In this document: one piece after another, positions 7,226 through 21,640 of the stretch
Layout: each line of letters starts with the position of its first letter
Position numbering within the stretch: the first letter of the stretch is position 1
Assembly (NCBI GenBank): GCA_001784435.1
Contig: MFQZ01000002.1
Span: 76,502-112,349, forward strand
Direction: 5' to 3'
From: Candidatus Magasanikbacteria bacterium RIFOXYC2_FULL_42_28
GTDB taxonomy: Bacteria > Patescibacteriota > Patescibacteriia > Magasanikbacterales > GWA2-37-8
Length of the DNA: 35,848 nt
Program-made: the position numbers and the translations under genes
Notes under the pieces: model-generated
What the model saw: only the letters and a program-made list of their open reading frames with translations
Told to the model about the DNA's origin: nothing
Database searches by the model: none

Positions 7226-7234
7226 GCGAAATGT

Positions 7235-7312
7235 CAAATTTCCAATTTCCAATTTCAAATTTTAATATTTGAATTTTGGATTTGATTTGACATTGGAAAT
7301 TTGAATTTTGTA
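7235..7312. repeat. Intergenic AT-rich period-7 repeat with opposing half
   Basis: AATTTCC AATTTCC AATTTCA AATTTTA ATATTTG AATTTTG GATTTGA followed by opposite-oriented GGAAATT... Confidence 0.75.
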
Positions 7313-7319
7313 ATTAAAT

Positions 7320-14992: not shown

Positions 14993-16456
14993 TCACACTT
15001 TCGCTAATGCCACCTGTATTCGCCTCAAAACTTCATCTTTATCAAGCACCACCGCGATTTCAAACGGCCCGGGCGATTTGTCTTGGCCAGACAAAGCCAC
15101 ACGCAAAGGCCACAAGACCGCGCCATTGGTGTAACCATTATCTTTTATCCACTGTATTACCTGCTTTTCTAAATCATTTTTATCTTTCAAATCAATTTTC
15201 TCTAACCAAACTAACAATTCTCCTAAAACTTTTTTTGCTTCCTCGGTCGTGCTTTTTTTAAATACCAACATCTCCGCCGGATAATCTGGCAATTCAAAAA
15301 TAAAATTAACCGCCCCCGGCAATTCCGCTAAAGTCGTCACTCGCTCTTTCTCCAATCCAATCACATTCGCGAAATCTTCAATCTTCAATCTTAAATCTTT
15401 AATCTTGTTGCCAAAAAACGGCAAAGCCAATTCAGCAACCTGCTCATTAGAAAGTTGCCGTAAATAATACTTATTATACCAATCCAATTTTTCCAAATTA
15501 AATACCGCGCCGGATTTATTAACTTTTTCTAAAGAAAATTCTTTGGCTAATTCCGCCAGTGAAAAAATCTCACGGTCATCGCCCGGATTCCATCCTAAAA
15601 ATGCCACGAAATTTATTAACGCTTCCGGTAGATATCCTTTTTTAACATAATCCCCGACCGCCACATCGCCCTGACGCTTACTTAATTTGGATTTATTGGC
15701 ATTAAGTAATAACGGCAAATGCGCGAACATCGGTTTTTCCCAACCAAAGCATTCATACAAATAAATATGTTTAGGCGTGCTGGGAAGCCATTCATCGCCA
15801 CGAATAACATGCGTTATGGCCATCAGATGGTCGTCAACCACTACCGCCAAGTGATAAGTGGGAAAGCCGTCGGTTTTAAGCAAAACTTGGTCATCCACCA
15901 ATTCGTTTTTAAAACTAACCTTGCCTTTGATTAAATCATTAAACTCCGTCATGCCGGTTTTGGGCATTTTTAAACGCACGGTGTACGGCGCGCCCGCGGT
16001 CAAATTCTTTTTTATTTCGGCCACATCCATTTCTCGACAATGACCATCATACCCCATCGGCCTATTAGCCGCGCTTTGTTTGGCCCGACATTCTTCCAAG
16101 CGCTCGGCCGTACAAAAACAATAATAAGCAAAACCCTTTTCCAACAAAATATTCGCGTGCTGTTCGTAAATTTTTAATCGTTTGGATTGTAAATATGGTC
16201 CATACTCGCCTTTTTCTATCACATCATTATTTTCAAATTCAACCACACCCTCGTCCGGTGCTATGTCCGCCCAATTTAAAGATTCTAAAATTGCCGGAAT
16301 TGCGCCTTCCACCGAACGCTTTTGGTCGGTGTCTTCCACGCGTAAAATAAACTTGCCGTTATTTTGTTTGGCGACTAAATAAGCATACAATGCCGTGCGC
16401 AAACCGCCGACATGTAAAAATCCGGTTGGTGAGGGGGCGAAGCGAGTACGAATCAT
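14993..16456 (-). CDS. gltX: Glutamate--tRNA ligase
   Basis: 487 aa; MIRTRFAPSPTGFLHVGGLRTALYAYL, KLSKRQGDVAVGDYVKKGYLPEALINFVAFLGWNPG. Confidence 0.95.
   Translation of the reverse strand: MIRTRFAPSPTGFLHVGGLRTALYAYLVAKQNNGKFILRVEDTDQKRSVEGAIPAILESLNWADIAPDEGVVEFENNDVIEKGEYGPYLQSKRLKIYEQHANILLEKGFAYYCFCTAERLEECRAKQSAANRPMGYDGHCREMDVAEIKKNLTAGAPYTVRLKMPKTGMTEFNDLIKGKVSFKNELVDDQVLLKTDGFPTYHLAVVVDDHLMAITHVIRGDEWLPSTPKHIYLYECFGWEKPMFAHLPLLLNANKSKLSKRQGDVAVGDYVKKGYLPEALINFVAFLGWNPGDDREIFSLAELAKEFSLEKVNKSGAVFNLEKLDWYNKYYLRQLSNEQVAELALPFFGNKIKDLRLKIEDFANVIGLEKERVTTLAELPGAVNFIFELPDYPAEMLVFKKSTTEEAKKVLGELLVWLEKIDLKDKNDLEKQVIQWIKDNGYTNGAVLWPLRVALSGQDKSPGPFEIAVVLDKDEVLRRIQVALAKV
15373..15407. repeat. 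Heptanucleotide tandem repeat (AATCTTN)x5 inside gltX
   Basis: AATCTTC AATCTTC AATCTTA AATCTTT AATCTTG; encodes ...NKIKDLRLKIEDF... Confidence 0.93.
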
Positions 16457-16460
16457 AAAT

Positions 16461-17027
16461 TTATGGTTTTTTAAATTCTAATTTTATTGGAACATTCCTT
16501 TTTCTGGACTGATACGCCTCGACGACAGTATTTTCACCAACCAATTTTAAACCGCTAAAATGCTCAACTACACGGACAAAATTTTTCGGCAACCAATCGG
16601 GTGTATATGTTTCCGCTATTGTTAATTTACCACCATTTTTTAAAACGCGATAAATTTCTCGCAAAATTTCTTCCATTTGTTCCGTGGCAATAGTGAAAAC
16701 ATTCCTAGCAACAACCTCGTCAATCGAGCTGTCGGCAAATGGCATTTTTTTAGCATCAAACGCGGCTAAATGAATTTTTTCGGCACGCTTATCTTTACGC
16801 GCCAATTTTTCCAAATTTTCAGTGGCAAGCAAAGACAAAGTATCAGCGTGTCTATCACCGGCTATATATAAATCAAACGGCGCTGACGGCCATTCGCCTT
16901 TAACCGGAGCCGGCACGGCGCCAGCACCAATTTCTAACACAATCCTTTTCTGTTTTTCTGATTCCAACTTTTCTGCCGGCTGGCTCGGCTCTCGTGGTGC
17001 TAAATCAATCCGTCTTCTCTCTGGCAT
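16461..17027 (-). CDS. Class I SAM-dependent methyltransferase
   Basis: MPERRRIDLAPREPSQPAEK...; IVLEIGAGAVPAP, DAKKMPFADSSIDEVVARNVF, EEILREIYRVLKNGGKLTIAETY; start chosen at internal Met (ORF opens at 17069). Confidence 0.85.
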   Translation of the reverse strand: MPERRRIDLAPREPSQPAEKLESEKQKRIVLEIGAGAVPAPVKGEWPSAPFDLYIAGDRHADTLSLLATENLEKLARKDKRAEKIHLAAFDAKKMPFADSSIDEVVARNVFTIATEQMEEILREIYRVLKNGGKLTIAETYTPDWLPKNFVRVVEHFSGLKLVGENTVVEAYQSRKRNVPIKLEFKKP

Positions 17028-17802
17028 AAAAATACAAAAACTTAACCGTGGCATTAAAAATGCGACCAAAACGCTTGGGTTCGCACGCCAATCGATATAC
17101 CCATTCTAACCCAATTTGACGAAAAAATAAAGGGGCGCGAGAAACATGGCCGGAAATGTAGTCCAAACTCCCGCCGACGCCCATAGCAATTTTTACCGAC
17201 GGTAATTTTGGCAAAAATTCGTTTATCCATTTTTCTTGTTTTACTTGGCCAAAGGCGACGAAGAGAATGTCGGGTTTAGCTACATCAATCTCATCAATTA
17301 CCATCTGATTTTCTAAAATATTCAACGAAGATTGAAGATTGAAGATCGAAGATTGTGAGACGTGATTTAATCTTAAATCTTTATTCTTCATTCTTAAATC
17401 AATTTTCGGCCCAACATTTGATCCAACTATTTTTAAACTCGGAAATTTTGTTTGCAAATTTATTTCTGCCAAATTCAAAACCGCGCGATCGCCCGTCCCC
17501 AACAAAAACACACTCTTCCCCAACACCTCGGCCAACCCACACAACTCCAAAACAAAATCTACGCCGGTCAAACGCTTAATTTTAAAACCACTTACTAATT
17601 GTATGCCAAACCCATCACACAAATTCAAATCCCCACTATTCAAAATATTTTTAAATTCCACGTCTTTTTGCGCGAACACGAGCATTTCGGGATTGGGAGT
17701 AAAAATTTTCTTTGGTAAATTACCAAATAAAAAACTCTCGGCCAGTTGTCTGGCTTCGGTTTTGGTGACGCTGTCAATTTTTACGCCTAAAATTTTTGGC
17801 AT
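17005..17802 (-). CDS. WecG/TagA/CpsF family glycosyltransferase
   Basis: 265 aa; FTPNPEMLVFAQKDVEFKNILNSGDLNLCDGFGIQL, PDILFVAFGQVKQEKWINEFLPKLPSVKIAMGVGGSLDYISGHVSRAPLFFRQIGLEWVYRLACEPKR. Confidence 0.93.
   Translation of the reverse strand: MPKILGVKIDSVTKTEARQLAESFLFGNLPKKIFTPNPEMLVFAQKDVEFKNILNSGDLNLCDGFGIQLVSGFKIKRLTGVDFVLELCGLAEVLGKSVFLLGTGDRAVLNLAEINLQTKFPSLKIVGSNVGPKIDLRMKNKDLRLNHVSQSSIFNLQSSLNILENQMVIDEIDVAKPDILFVAFGQVKQEKWINEFLPKLPSVKIAMGVGGSLDYISGHVSRAPLFFRQIGLEWVYRLACEPKRFGRIFNATVKFLYFYAREKTD
17327..17400. repeat. Palindromic heptanucleotide element inside the wecG-like CDS
   Basis: GAAGATT GAAGATT GAAGATC GAAGATT (17327-17354), short spacer, AATCTTA AATCTTT ATTCTTC ATTCTTA AATC (17369-17400): head-to-head arrays of the same 7-mer. 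Confidence 0.92.
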
Positions 17803-17811
17803 AATTTTTCA

Positions 17812-17916
17812 TTGTCATCCCGAGCGTAGCCGAGGGATCCCTTAAAGTAATCATTTTACTAATGCCAGCGTTAAGGGATTCCTCCGCTCCTTGCGACAGT
17901 CGGTCGGAATGACAAA
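17812..17916. repeat. Large imperfect inverted repeat of the TGTCATYCCGAGC...GAGGRATC family
   Basis: TTGTCATCCCGAGCG...GAGGGATCCCTTAA ... TTAAGGGATTCCTCCGCTC...CGGTCGGAATGACAAA. Confidence 0.85.
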
Positions 17917-17917
17917 G

Positions 17918-18340
17918 TTATTTTAAACTAATAATAATCGCCCCGCCAACCATCAGTAACGCCCCCAACGCCACTCGCCAACTCAACGCCTCACCCAAAA
18001 ACACGGCCGCGAGCAAAACAACAAACACCAAACTTAAGCGATCAATCACAACCACGCGCGTTGCCAAACCAACTTTCAGCGCCATAAAATAAAACAACCA
18101 CGACAGCGCTCCGGAAATACCTGCCAAAAAAATAAACCACCATTCGCGAGCAGACAAAGAATGAAAGTTTGTGCTATTGAATTTTCCCAAAAACAAACTC
18201 GTCAAAACCAAAAATCCGGCCATAATAAGCGAGCGCACAGTCGTGGCAAAAGTGGAATCAATATTTTTCAAACCCATTTTCGCGAAGATCGCGACGCCGG
18301 CGGCGGTGATGGCGGATAAGAAGGCGAGGATTAGCCACAT
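17918..18340 (-). CDS. EamA/DMT-family transporter, single-repeat (4-TM) size
   Basis: 140 aa; MWLILAFLSAITAAGVAIFAKMGLKNIDSTFATTVRSLIMA...RVALGALLMVGGAIIISLK. Confidence 0.85.
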   Translation of the reverse strand: MWLILAFLSAITAAGVAIFAKMGLKNIDSTFATTVRSLIMAGFLVLTSLFLGKFNSTNFHSLSAREWWFIFLAGISGALSWLFYFMALKVGLATRVVVIDRLSLVFVVLLAAVFLGEALSWRVALGALLMVGGAIIISLK

Positions 18341-18343
18341 ATT

Positions 18344-18364
18344 GAAGATTAAAGATTGAAGATC
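18344..18364. repeat. Heptanucleotide repeat GAAGATT AAAGATT GAAGATC in the EamA 5' region
   Basis: Same 7-mer family as in gltX and wecG-like; 3 copies 3 nt from the EamA start codon. Confidence 0.85.
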
Positions 18365-18688: not shown

Positions 18689-18716
18689 TTCGGCCTCCTT
18701 TCAATAATAAAATAAC

Positions 18717-18755
<39 letters not shown>

Positions 18756-18875: not shown

Positions 18876-21518
18876 ATGGCTCCTCAAAACTTCACCAACA
18901 AATCTCAAGAAATGATCCAGCGCGCGGCTGGGATTGCCGGCAAAAATAATTTTCCGCAGGTGGAACCGCCCCATCTTTTTTTCGCTTTTTTGGAAGACGA
19001 AGAAAATATTGTGGTTTCAATTTTGCGCAAACTTAATGTTAATTTAATTGCTTTGCGCGCCGATATCCAGTCCCTCATTGACAAACTCCCCCGCCCGTCC
19101 GGCCAAGTTCAGCAAGGCGGTGTTGGTCAAATTTTACTTGGGCCCGCGATGATGTATATTTTCCAAACGGCCGGCCAAGAAGCGCAAAAAATGAAAGACG
19201 AATATATCAGCGTGGAACATTTATTGCTCGCTTTTTTGGTTAGTAAAAATCCGGTGAGTGAACTGTTGGAAAAAAATGGAATTAGTTATGACAAAACATT
19301 ACAAGCGCTCGTAGCCGTGCGTGGTAATCAACGGGTGGACTCGCCCGAACCGGAAACTAAATACAATGCTTTAGAAAAATACGGAAAAAATTTAACTGAT
19401 CTCGCGCGCAAAGAAAAAATTGATCCGGTAATCGGACGCGATGATGAAATTCGGCGCGTGATGCAAATTTTATCGCGCCGAACAAAAAATAATCCGGTAT
19501 TAATCGGCGAACCGGGCACGGGCAAAACCGCCATTGCCGAAGGACTGGCGCAACGGATTGTTAATAACGATGTCCCCGACTCTCTGCGTGACAAAGAAAT
19601 TTTCGCGTTAGATATTGGCTCGCTTGTGGCCGGCACCAAATTCCGCGGTGAATTTGAAGAACGGTTAAAGGCGGTTTTAAAAGAAATCAACGCCTCGGCC
19701 GGAAAATATATTTTGTTTATTGACGAACTGCACACCATTGTTGGCGCGGGATCAAGTGAGGGTTCGGTGGACGCGGCCAATCTCTTGAAACCAATGCTCG
19801 CGCGCGGAGAATTACATTGTATTGGCGCGACCACTTTAAAAGAATATCAAAAATACGTGGAAAAAGACGCGGCTTTGGAACGCCGTTTCCAACCGGTAAT
19901 GGTAGCCGAGCCATCCGTGGACGATGCCATCGCGATTTTGCGCGGAATTAAAGAAAAATACGAAGTTCATCACGGTGTACGCATCACGGACGCGTCAATT
20001 TTGGCAGCGGTTAATTTATCTTCTCGCTATTTATCGGATCGATTTTTACCGGACAAAGCGATTGATTTAATGGACGAAGCGGCCTCGGCCTTACGACTGG
20101 AAATAAATTCTATGCCCGAGGATTTGGATAAAATGAAACGCGCGATGATAAAATTAGAAATTGAAAAACGCGCTTTGAAAAAAGAAAAAGACGAGGACTC
20201 GCGCGAACGGTTGAATAAATTAGAAAAAGAATTAGCGGAATTAAAAGCCAATAGCGCCGAATTGGAAGCCAAATGGCAAAATGAAAAAACCATCATCAGT
20301 AAAATTCACGAAAACAAACGTCAAATTGACCAATTGAAACAGCAGGCCGATATTGAGGAACGCAAAGGCGATTTACAAAAAGTGGCCGAGGTGCGTTATG
20401 GAAAAATTCCATTGCTGGAAGGTGAAATTCGCCAGGATGAAAAAAAATTAGCGGACTTGCAAAAAAGCCACGGGATTTTAAAAGAAGAAGTTACGGACGA
20501 AGACATCGCCGGCGTCGTCGCGCGCTGGACCGGAATTCCGATTGTGAAAATGTTACAAACCGAATCCGAACGCCTGATTAAAATGGAGGATGAATTAGGC
20601 AAACGCGTCATTGGCCAAAGTGAAGCCGTTAAAGCGGTATCCAACGCCATCCGCCGTTCACGCGCGGGCATTGCCGAACCCAATCGCCCCATTGGCTCCT
20701 TTATCTTTTTGGGCCCGACCGGTGTAGGCAAAACCGAACTCTCCAAAGCGCTCGCCGAATTTATGTTTGACTCCGCCGACGCTCTCGTGCGCGTGGATAT
20801 GAGTGAATATATGGAAAAGCACGCCACCAGCAAACTCGTCGGCTCCCCGCCCGGCTATGTGGGCTATGAAGAAGGCGGACAACTCACCGAAATCGTCCGC
20901 CGCCGACCGTATTGCGTAATATTATTGGACGAAGTGGAAAAAGCGCATCCGGATGTGTTTAATATCTTATTGCAAATTTTAGATGAAGGCCATGTTACCG
21001 ATGCCAAAGGCCGAACGGTAAATTTCAAAAACACGGTGATAATTATGACCTCCAACATCGGAAGCCAAATGATTTTGGACACCAACCGCAAAGGCGAATT
21101 TGGTTTTGAAGATTCTCACGGCAAACGCGGTAAAAAAACCGAAGATTCCGTGCGCGCCAAAATTATGGATTTGCTCAAAGATCATTTCCGCCCAGAATTT
21201 TTGAATCGCATTGATGAGACCATAATTTTTGAAGCATTAGGCGAAGAAGAAATTCAAAAAATTGTGGAATTGCAACTCACGGAATTAGCCAAACGATTAA
21301 CTGATAAAAAAATCACGCTAAAAATTGATCCGGCGGTGAAAAAATATCTGGCCAAGGAAGGATATAATCCGGATTATGGCGCGCGGCCGTTGAAGCGGAT
21401 AATTCAGACGGAGTTGTTGGATAAATTGGCGTTTGCGCTAATTACGGGGGATGTTGCGGAAGGACAGGTGGTGGAGATTGGGGTGGAGAAGGGTAAAATT
21501 ATATTGTCATCCAAATAA
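18876..21518 (+). CDS. clpB: ATP-dependent disaggregase ClpB
   Basis: 880 aa; Clp N domain, Walker [19 protein letters not shown], middle coiled coil, second [35 protein letters not shown]. Confidence 0.96.
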
Positions 21519-21520
21519 TT

Positions 21521-21640
21521 GTCATTCCCGTGAAAACGGGAATCCAGTCGCCGTTTGTCATTCCGAGCGAGGCCTCGCGGCCGACGAGGAATCTCTGTCT
21601 CACTTTCTGTCATCCCGAACTTGATTCGGGATCTCTGTCC
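21521..21640. repeat. Cluster of three different TGTCATYCC-type palindromic repeats
   Basis: ATTCCCGtgaaaaCGGGAAT (21524-21543); TGTCATTCCGAGCGAGGCCTCGCGGCCGACGAGGAATCTC (~21556-21595); ATCCCGAA-cttga-TTCGGGAT (21612-21632). Confidence 0.9.

Follow-up and report, generated by a model that had tools for sequence, protein, structure and literature searches.

An in-frame heptamer palindrome in a wecG gene

The stretch of DNA analysed here (the window) spans 35,848 nucleotides of Candidatus Magasanikbacteria bacterium RIFOXYC2_FULL_42_28 (contig MFQZ01000002.1, positions 76,502 to 112,349). It carries a WecG-type glycosyltransferase gene whose reading frame runs through a palindrome of seven-nucleotide units at 17327-17400. 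The relevant features, in window coordinates, are:

7229-7315, no strand assigned: second heptamer palindrome, AATTTCC/AATTTTG with inverted TTTGGATTTGATTTGACATTGGAAATTTG (AATTTCC / TTGGAAA type), between era and an S41-peptidase-like gene
15373-15406, minus strand: single five-unit arm, in frame in the glutamyl-tRNA synthetase gene gltX (14993-16456); with an identical counterpart at this position in the sister species
17005-17802, minus strand: WecG/TagA/CpsF glycosyltransferase gene, 265 amino acids, with the element in frame (open reading frame; Pfam Glyco_tran_WecG, PF03808, E 3e-43)
17327-17354, plus strand: left arm, units GAAGATT, GAAGATT, GAAGATC and GAAGATT; the minus-strand coding reads ..QSSIFNLQSS
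17355-17368, no strand assigned: 14-nt spacer GTGAGACGTGATTT, unlike the spacers of other copies (sequence reading and spacer comparison)
17369-17396, minus strand: right arm, units AATCTTA, AATCTTT, ATTCTTC and ATTCTTA (two of the four being ATTCTTN); coding strand DLRMKNKDLRL
17813-17915, no strand assigned: TGTCAT-tagged REP-type palindrome TGTCATCCCGAG..GGATCC / GGGATTCC..GGAATGACA, just upstream of wecG; repeats of this type and the heptamer element replace each other between the two species
18341-18364, plus strand: single three-unit arm, intergenic, adjoining an EamA-like open reading frame (17918-18340)

Tandem Repeats Finder gave a period of 7 for both arms of the wecG element, an inverted-repeat search recovered the two arms as a pair, and direct reading shows a partial unit, AATC, following the right arm and ending at 17400. 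The minus-strand translation of the element, KIDLRMKNKDLRLNHVSQSSIFNLQSSLNILEN, lies within the 265-residue frame. The original prediction of four tandem GAAGATT-type 7-mers facing four AATCTTN 7-mers over a short spacer, inside the reading frame of a WecG-type gene, agrees with the sequence, the reading frame and the Pfam assignment. An Rfam search of 17000-17900 returned only sub-threshold microRNA models.

We next compared the protein with its relatives, of which 7MPK, 5WB4 and 5WFG have solved structures. The distance from the PNPE motif to the KQE motif is 146 residues in the window's WecG and about 124-136 in most relatives, and a 14-position gap of the solved TagA 7MPK against the family profile coincides with the loop that holds the element. 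It had been expected that relatives would run directly from KIVG..xG to PDILxV and that the element would form an extra block. Instead, a native loop, variable in all relatives, occupies this place. The net excess of the loop with the heptamer pair is therefore about 13-18 residues over most relatives, not the whole segment; none of the relatives carries the same peptide in heptamer-free form. In the structure model (mean pLDDT 87.4), residues 138-159 are the only segment below 50 and are flanked by a strand (124-129) and a helix (162-175). The element maps to this low-pLDDT loop, as a surface-loop position had been proposed as a check, so that on the model the element encodes a predicted disordered loop, for which LQSSLNILENQMVIDEIDVAK is an example of the repeat-derived peptide (predicted translation).

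The arrays are dispersed through one genus

To a search with the 14-mer GAAGATTGAAGATT at up to three mismatches, the window gave 19 matches, against a shuffle mean of 6.1 and a maximum of 13; none of 100 shuffles reached 19. Genome-wide, the exact pattern AAGATTNAAGATTNAAGATT occurs 16 times in the window's genome (G000) and its reversed control not once. Counting loci as stretches around matches, a procedure that may overlook copies in which several units are degraded, heptamer arrays occur at about 20 places in this 1.15-Mb genome and at more than 20 in its nearest relative among the genomes compared, a sister species of the same genus (G001, a Ca. Magasanikbacteria MAG). The genome search for head-to-head arrays that had been set as a test of the element therefore turned up the further copies it called for. 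In both species the copies occupy short intergenic gaps or in-frame positions in genes.

The word at up to one mismatch is present in only six of 57 relatives, with counts of 41 and 41 within the genus and 0-4 elsewhere, so that other genera nearly lack it. An exact match occurs in 17 of 380 sampled Patescibacteria genomes; its distribution there is sporadic, and a few genomes (G334, G406) are rich in it. G334 carries long homogeneous arrays of 14 GAAGATT units (C14:31906-32002 and C28:137509-137605) that reach or nearly reach the end of a contig and are probably longer arrays cut by the assembly. A literature search, conducted over papers outside subscription, found no published description of heptamer repeats in Patescibacteria.

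Units and arms behave like independent draws

Close pairs in the two species have the form 5'-(AAGAWTR)3-6, a spacer of 9-36 nt and the reverse complement. All 21 such pairs, 18 of them non-orthologous, share one polarity, and their spacers are mutually unrelated. Arms contain three (19) or four (19) units in 38 of 42 cases, with few other sizes. Among 110 units, positions 1, 2 and 4 are invariant, position 3 is G in 85% and position 6 is T in 95%, while T, A or C can stand at position 5 and A or G at position 7. This positional conservation was not imposed by the search, because detection weighted all positions alike. In the outer 14-nt flanks of 38 arms an ATAATTR-like unit is often present; apart from A-richness and a purine at the N position, the inner side lacks a clear consensus.

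We then asked how the units relate to one another. Adjacent units are no more alike than shuffled ones (core P=0.21, position 5 P=0.72), the likeness of paired arms does not exceed that of arms from different loci (0.83 vs 0.84, P=0.91), and identical three-unit arms are shared between loci in 10 pairs, against 12.6 expected from independent draws. Slippage, mirror duplication and whole-copy transposition each predict one of these three excesses, and the absence of all three argues against them. Units, paired arms and arms of different loci behave like random draws from one degenerate heptamer. Slippage and mirror duplication are rejected as the main source by the neighbouring-unit and paired-arm tests, and whole-arm copying is likewise unsupported by the count of identical arms. 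Slippage does contribute locally, as indicated by four consecutive AAGAATA units at C5:1770 of G001; unit expansion is seen at some shared sites.

In-gene copies fill loops of unrelated proteins

In the window's genome, in-gene copies lie in wecG (a pair), gltX, prmC (two), ligA (two) and leuS (two arms about 130 bp apart); in the sister species they lie in gltX, prmC (two), polA, purL, ruvX, truB and an O-antigen-ligase-like gene. The reading frames give KIEDLRLKIED-type peptides on one strand or QSSIFNLQSS on the other. The in-frame part of the proposal that the repeat is tolerated inside proteins is thereby borne out, the arrays being part of the open reading frame in several unrelated genes. 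With the single arms of prmC and gltX, protein length shifts by only about 0-5 residues relative to homologues, which indicates that single arms replace native loop sequence rather than simply insert.

Variable PrmC loops of other genera (G005, G010, G009 and G007; loci L240, L243, L239 and L242) read CHPEQSEGSS, PSPIRGGVRGG, PLPWGEGHGVRA, LPTGRQV and LAGRQAADD. To judge by sequence, these repeat-derived-looking peptides suggest that repeat-filled loops may be common in the family. Separately, the 1,039-residue leuS frame (L050:5929-9045, contig C10 of G000) has a Pfam serine-hydrolase / alpha-beta hydrolase match at residues about 486-660, between the editing and anticodon domains, possibly an inserted hydrolase domain.

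Other palindromic repeats occupy the same sites

The sites themselves proved to be shared with other repeats. Among 11 comparable in-gene heptamer sites, three are common to both species (gltX, prmC site B and the degraded leuS arm 2), seven are occupied in the other species by a different palindromic repeat (wecG, prmC sites A and C, leuS arm 1, polA, truB and the O-antigen-ligase-like gene) and one, in ruvX, is empty there. These figures describe two species of one genus and eight in-gene heptamer copies that only one of them has, with ligA, purL, purA and a few others set aside as having no comparable sequence in the other species. The WecG loop of G001 contains a REP dimer, TGTCATTCCCGCGAAAGCGGGAATCCAG..CTGGATCCCCGTTTTCACGGGGATGACA, that resembles the published CGTC class except in the first tag base, and the WecG loops of two other genera (G005 and G023) contain TGTCATTCTGA-type, TGTCAT-tagged repeats. 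In truB, the window's genome has a TGTCATTCCGA repeat bracketed by inverted arrays of a third heptamer, NNATATT.

Exchange also occurs at intergenic sites (e.g., at C10:37155, C1:254809 and C10:135352), and at two others, C25:19241 and C22:61574, one species has a copy where the other apparently has none. Filled/empty pairs show no target duplication, but the flanks of the two species have diverged. Once single motif matches had been discarded by eye, clusters of the TGTCAT type came to roughly 3 in 76 kb for G000 and 5 in 40 kb for G001, a density so low that their coincidence with heptamers inside genes is too frequent for chance. The site sharing admits two readings: either a few places that tolerate extra DNA collect all repeats, or palindromes attract new insertions. 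Elsewhere in the window, a TGTCAT-tagged palindromic repeat cluster lies at 21504-21610, after a ClpB-like gene. At the end of trxB, a member of the AATTTCC / TTGGAAA family stands in G000 and an AAGATTN pair in G001.

Comparison with known repeat systems

REPs carry an unpaired GTAG or CGTC tag at the end of a short hairpin, and the GTAG class goes with a RAYT transposase. Rickettsia palindromic elements (RPEs) insert in frame in unrelated protein genes and form a family that can be aligned over its full length, and MITEs are recognised by a target-site duplication at the insertion. Like RPEs, the AAGAWTR arrays lie in frame in unrelated genes (wecG, gltX, prmC, ligA, leuS, polA, truB, ruvX and purL), yet their spacers are unrelated and the order of units is random between loci, so that no alignable full-length family emerges. 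A GTAG or CGTC tag is absent from the 14-nt outer flanks of all 38 arms. The transposase domain Y1_Tnp (PF01797) is missing from G000, which is 97% complete, and the single Y1_Tnp of G001 is flanked by AAAAGGGTCAG repeats, not heptamers. The arms are heptamer arrays, with neither the hairpin with a 4-5-nt loop nor the CCA tail of these elements. The arrays do resemble RPEs and in-gene REPs as small palindromes in frame in the same kinds of genes: in-gene REPs are listed for DNA ligase, DNA polymerase I, tRNA synthetases and TruB, and two Xanthomonas recB genes hold different REPs at about the same site (PMC3733652).

By anatomy, the closest published match appears to be the GGGAATC, or (GGGANTN)n, repeats of Xanthomonas, in which positions 1-4 and 6 are conserved, 5 and 7 vary, and arrays mostly have four units (PMC4692102). 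About 70 convergent inverted pairs per genome are dispersed there, mostly between genes with a minority inside them; length and sequence differ between related species, and Nostoc has a counterpart, GGGGA(T/C)T (PMC4692102). The heptamer period, the pattern of conserved positions, the convergent pairs and the modal four units (tied with three in AAGAWTR, 19 arms each) are all shared. In contrast, the AAGAWTR arrays have no quadruplex G-tracts (one G per unit, or two with G at position 7), belong to another phylum, lie in frame in essential genes and swap with REPs at the same codon; homology between the two cannot be shown. The original prediction was right that the anatomy departs from that of RPEs, but head-to-head heptamers are not unique, given that the Xanthomonas repeats have the same layout. 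Convergent heptamer arrays, discussed in Xanthomonas as quadruplex-forming, occur in a distant phylum without G-tracts, and quadruplex formation therefore cannot be the common cause of this anatomy.

TAACTGA heptamers of Beggiatoaceae, cyanobacteria and Bacteroidetes offer a second comparison: these are direct repeats mostly upstream of start codons, with one inverted case (PMC4679880). They too are lineage-patchy arrays (2-6 units), a few of them within open reading frames (PMC4679880). The AAGAWTR arrays differ in that convergent pairs dominate, copies lie in genes and start codons are not favoured.

Origin and persistence of the arrays

What has been observed is that the arrays are dispersed, keep one polarity, code in frame, sit in loops, are restricted to a lineage and swap with REPs. 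We favour the reading that these genus-specific, dispersed, convergent AAGAWTR arrays are probably tolerated patches of DNA that survive in gaps and protein loops. The element would consist of an unconserved spacer between two convergent arrays of about three to four units each, to which an ATAATTR-like unit is often added on the outside. Such copies would arise at many sites and persist only where they do little harm, namely in short intergenic gaps and in disordered or variable protein loops. Those in loops would stay in frame and yield low-complexity linker peptides (KIEDLRLKIED or QSSIFNLQSS); the WecG copy would fill the loop between β-strand and helix and leave the catalytic motifs undisturbed. 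Other palindromes, mainly TGTCAT-tagged REPs, would use the same landing places, leaving different repeats at the same codon in sister species. The patches would have no role in the host protein, and the arrays may be built up one unit at a time where DNA is exposed or broken, not by copying of the whole element.

A different explanation is that of a small non-autonomous mobile palindrome (a REP, RPE or MITE) copied whole by a transposase such as RAYT/Y1. It would account for the dispersal, the presence and absence between species, the in-frame insertion in genes and the landing sites held in common with REPs, and the two intergenic sites at which one species apparently lacks a copy also speak for it. 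We nevertheless consider it unlikely, since spacers are unrelated, arms vary in length and are not copied between loci, target duplications were not seen, and single arms in genes replace sequence instead of adding it. The missing Y1_Tnp domain also counts against it, and RAYT/Y1 is rejected as the carrier in G000. Accordingly, of the initial suggestion of a mobile or amplifying repeat, dispersal and amplification hold (about 20 places per species), while mobility of the transposon type finds no support: no target-site duplication, fixed core or dedicated transposase came to light.

The arrays might alternatively be selected nucleic-acid sites, either DNA or RNA sites of a protein that recognises AAGAWTR or mRNA hairpins and terminators. 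The invariance of positions 1, 2 and 4 across the 110 units, together with the rarely varying position 6, could reflect binding-site selection instead of neutral patches. Some spacers contain an A-run or a terminator-like hairpin (C1:254829-254864), and the folding of the WecG copy is slightly more favourable than that of shuffled sequences (z -2.2). Opposed to this are the sharing of only about 7 sites between two species of one genus, the rest being replaced or empty, the lack of covariation between arms, and the occurrence of coding-region copies and single arms at no consistent regulatory position. Selected sites thus seem rather improbable as the explanation.

Returning to the tolerated patches, one speculative way for them to form resembles telomere addition: a templated, lineage-specific heptamer would be added to both 3' ends at a break or nick before joining, as a filler. 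Extension of both 3' ends would produce convergent polarity, unrelated spacers, independence of units and arms, positional degeneracy and replacement without target duplication; we hold it to be a long shot. The reverse-transcriptase domain RVT_1 is present in G000, G001 and G148 and absent from G009, G334, G406, G084, G345 and G395. Reverse transcriptase is excluded as a universal factor, as the heptamer-rich G084, G334 and G406 have no RVT_1. In G000, one RVT_1 frame lies at C3:52133-52747 (L230) and a second is split over two frames at C6:5034-5673.

Local birth, by slippage on a chance heptamer and then template switching at a fork to make the inverted arm, is still harder to credit. In many bacterial genomes no long simple repeat is more abundant than the heptamer, for which slippage has been proposed (PMC4692102, PMC4679880), and the expansion at C5:1770 in G001 fits; yet a single heptamer recurs at about 20 unrelated loci, adjacent units are unlike and the two arms do not mirror each other. 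Ordinary protein evolution or chance low-complexity loop sequence, for which the variability of the WecG loop in all relatives could speak, can be dismissed in view of exact heptamer arrays at many sites, zero matches of the reversed control and the fixed polarity.

The element is real, dispersed, in frame and lineage-specific, and what interests us most is its sharing of sites with REPs and the independence of its units. Variable protein loops in these reduced genomes are landing places common to unrelated palindromic repeats, and essential enzymes consequently owe some of their loop sequence to repeats. How short palindromes spread into coding sequence is an old question that can be tested by comparing closely related Magasanikbacteria genomes.

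Other heptamer words

TTAGAAN, the word used as the reversed control, itself forms genuine arrays in eight lineages among other Patescibacteria; its arms hold 4-6 units and stand in inverted pairs that all have the same polarity. Compared with AAGAWTR, the order of purine-rich and pyrimidine-rich arms is opposite, and the spacers are longer and contain further heptamers (AATATTN). The occurrence of such arrays elsewhere indicates that what is general is the convergent array of heptamers, the word itself being lineage-specific. At L182, L190, L192, L199 and other loci, TTAGAAN arms enclose AATATTN and TTTGAAA words, making concentric palindromes. In random 20-kb stretches of 14 genomes the heptamer was the commonest period, in numbers too small to weigh. 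A different simple repeat, an AAT trinucleotide microsatellite of about 18 copies, lies in the window at 18703-18755, upstream of the ClpB-like gene.
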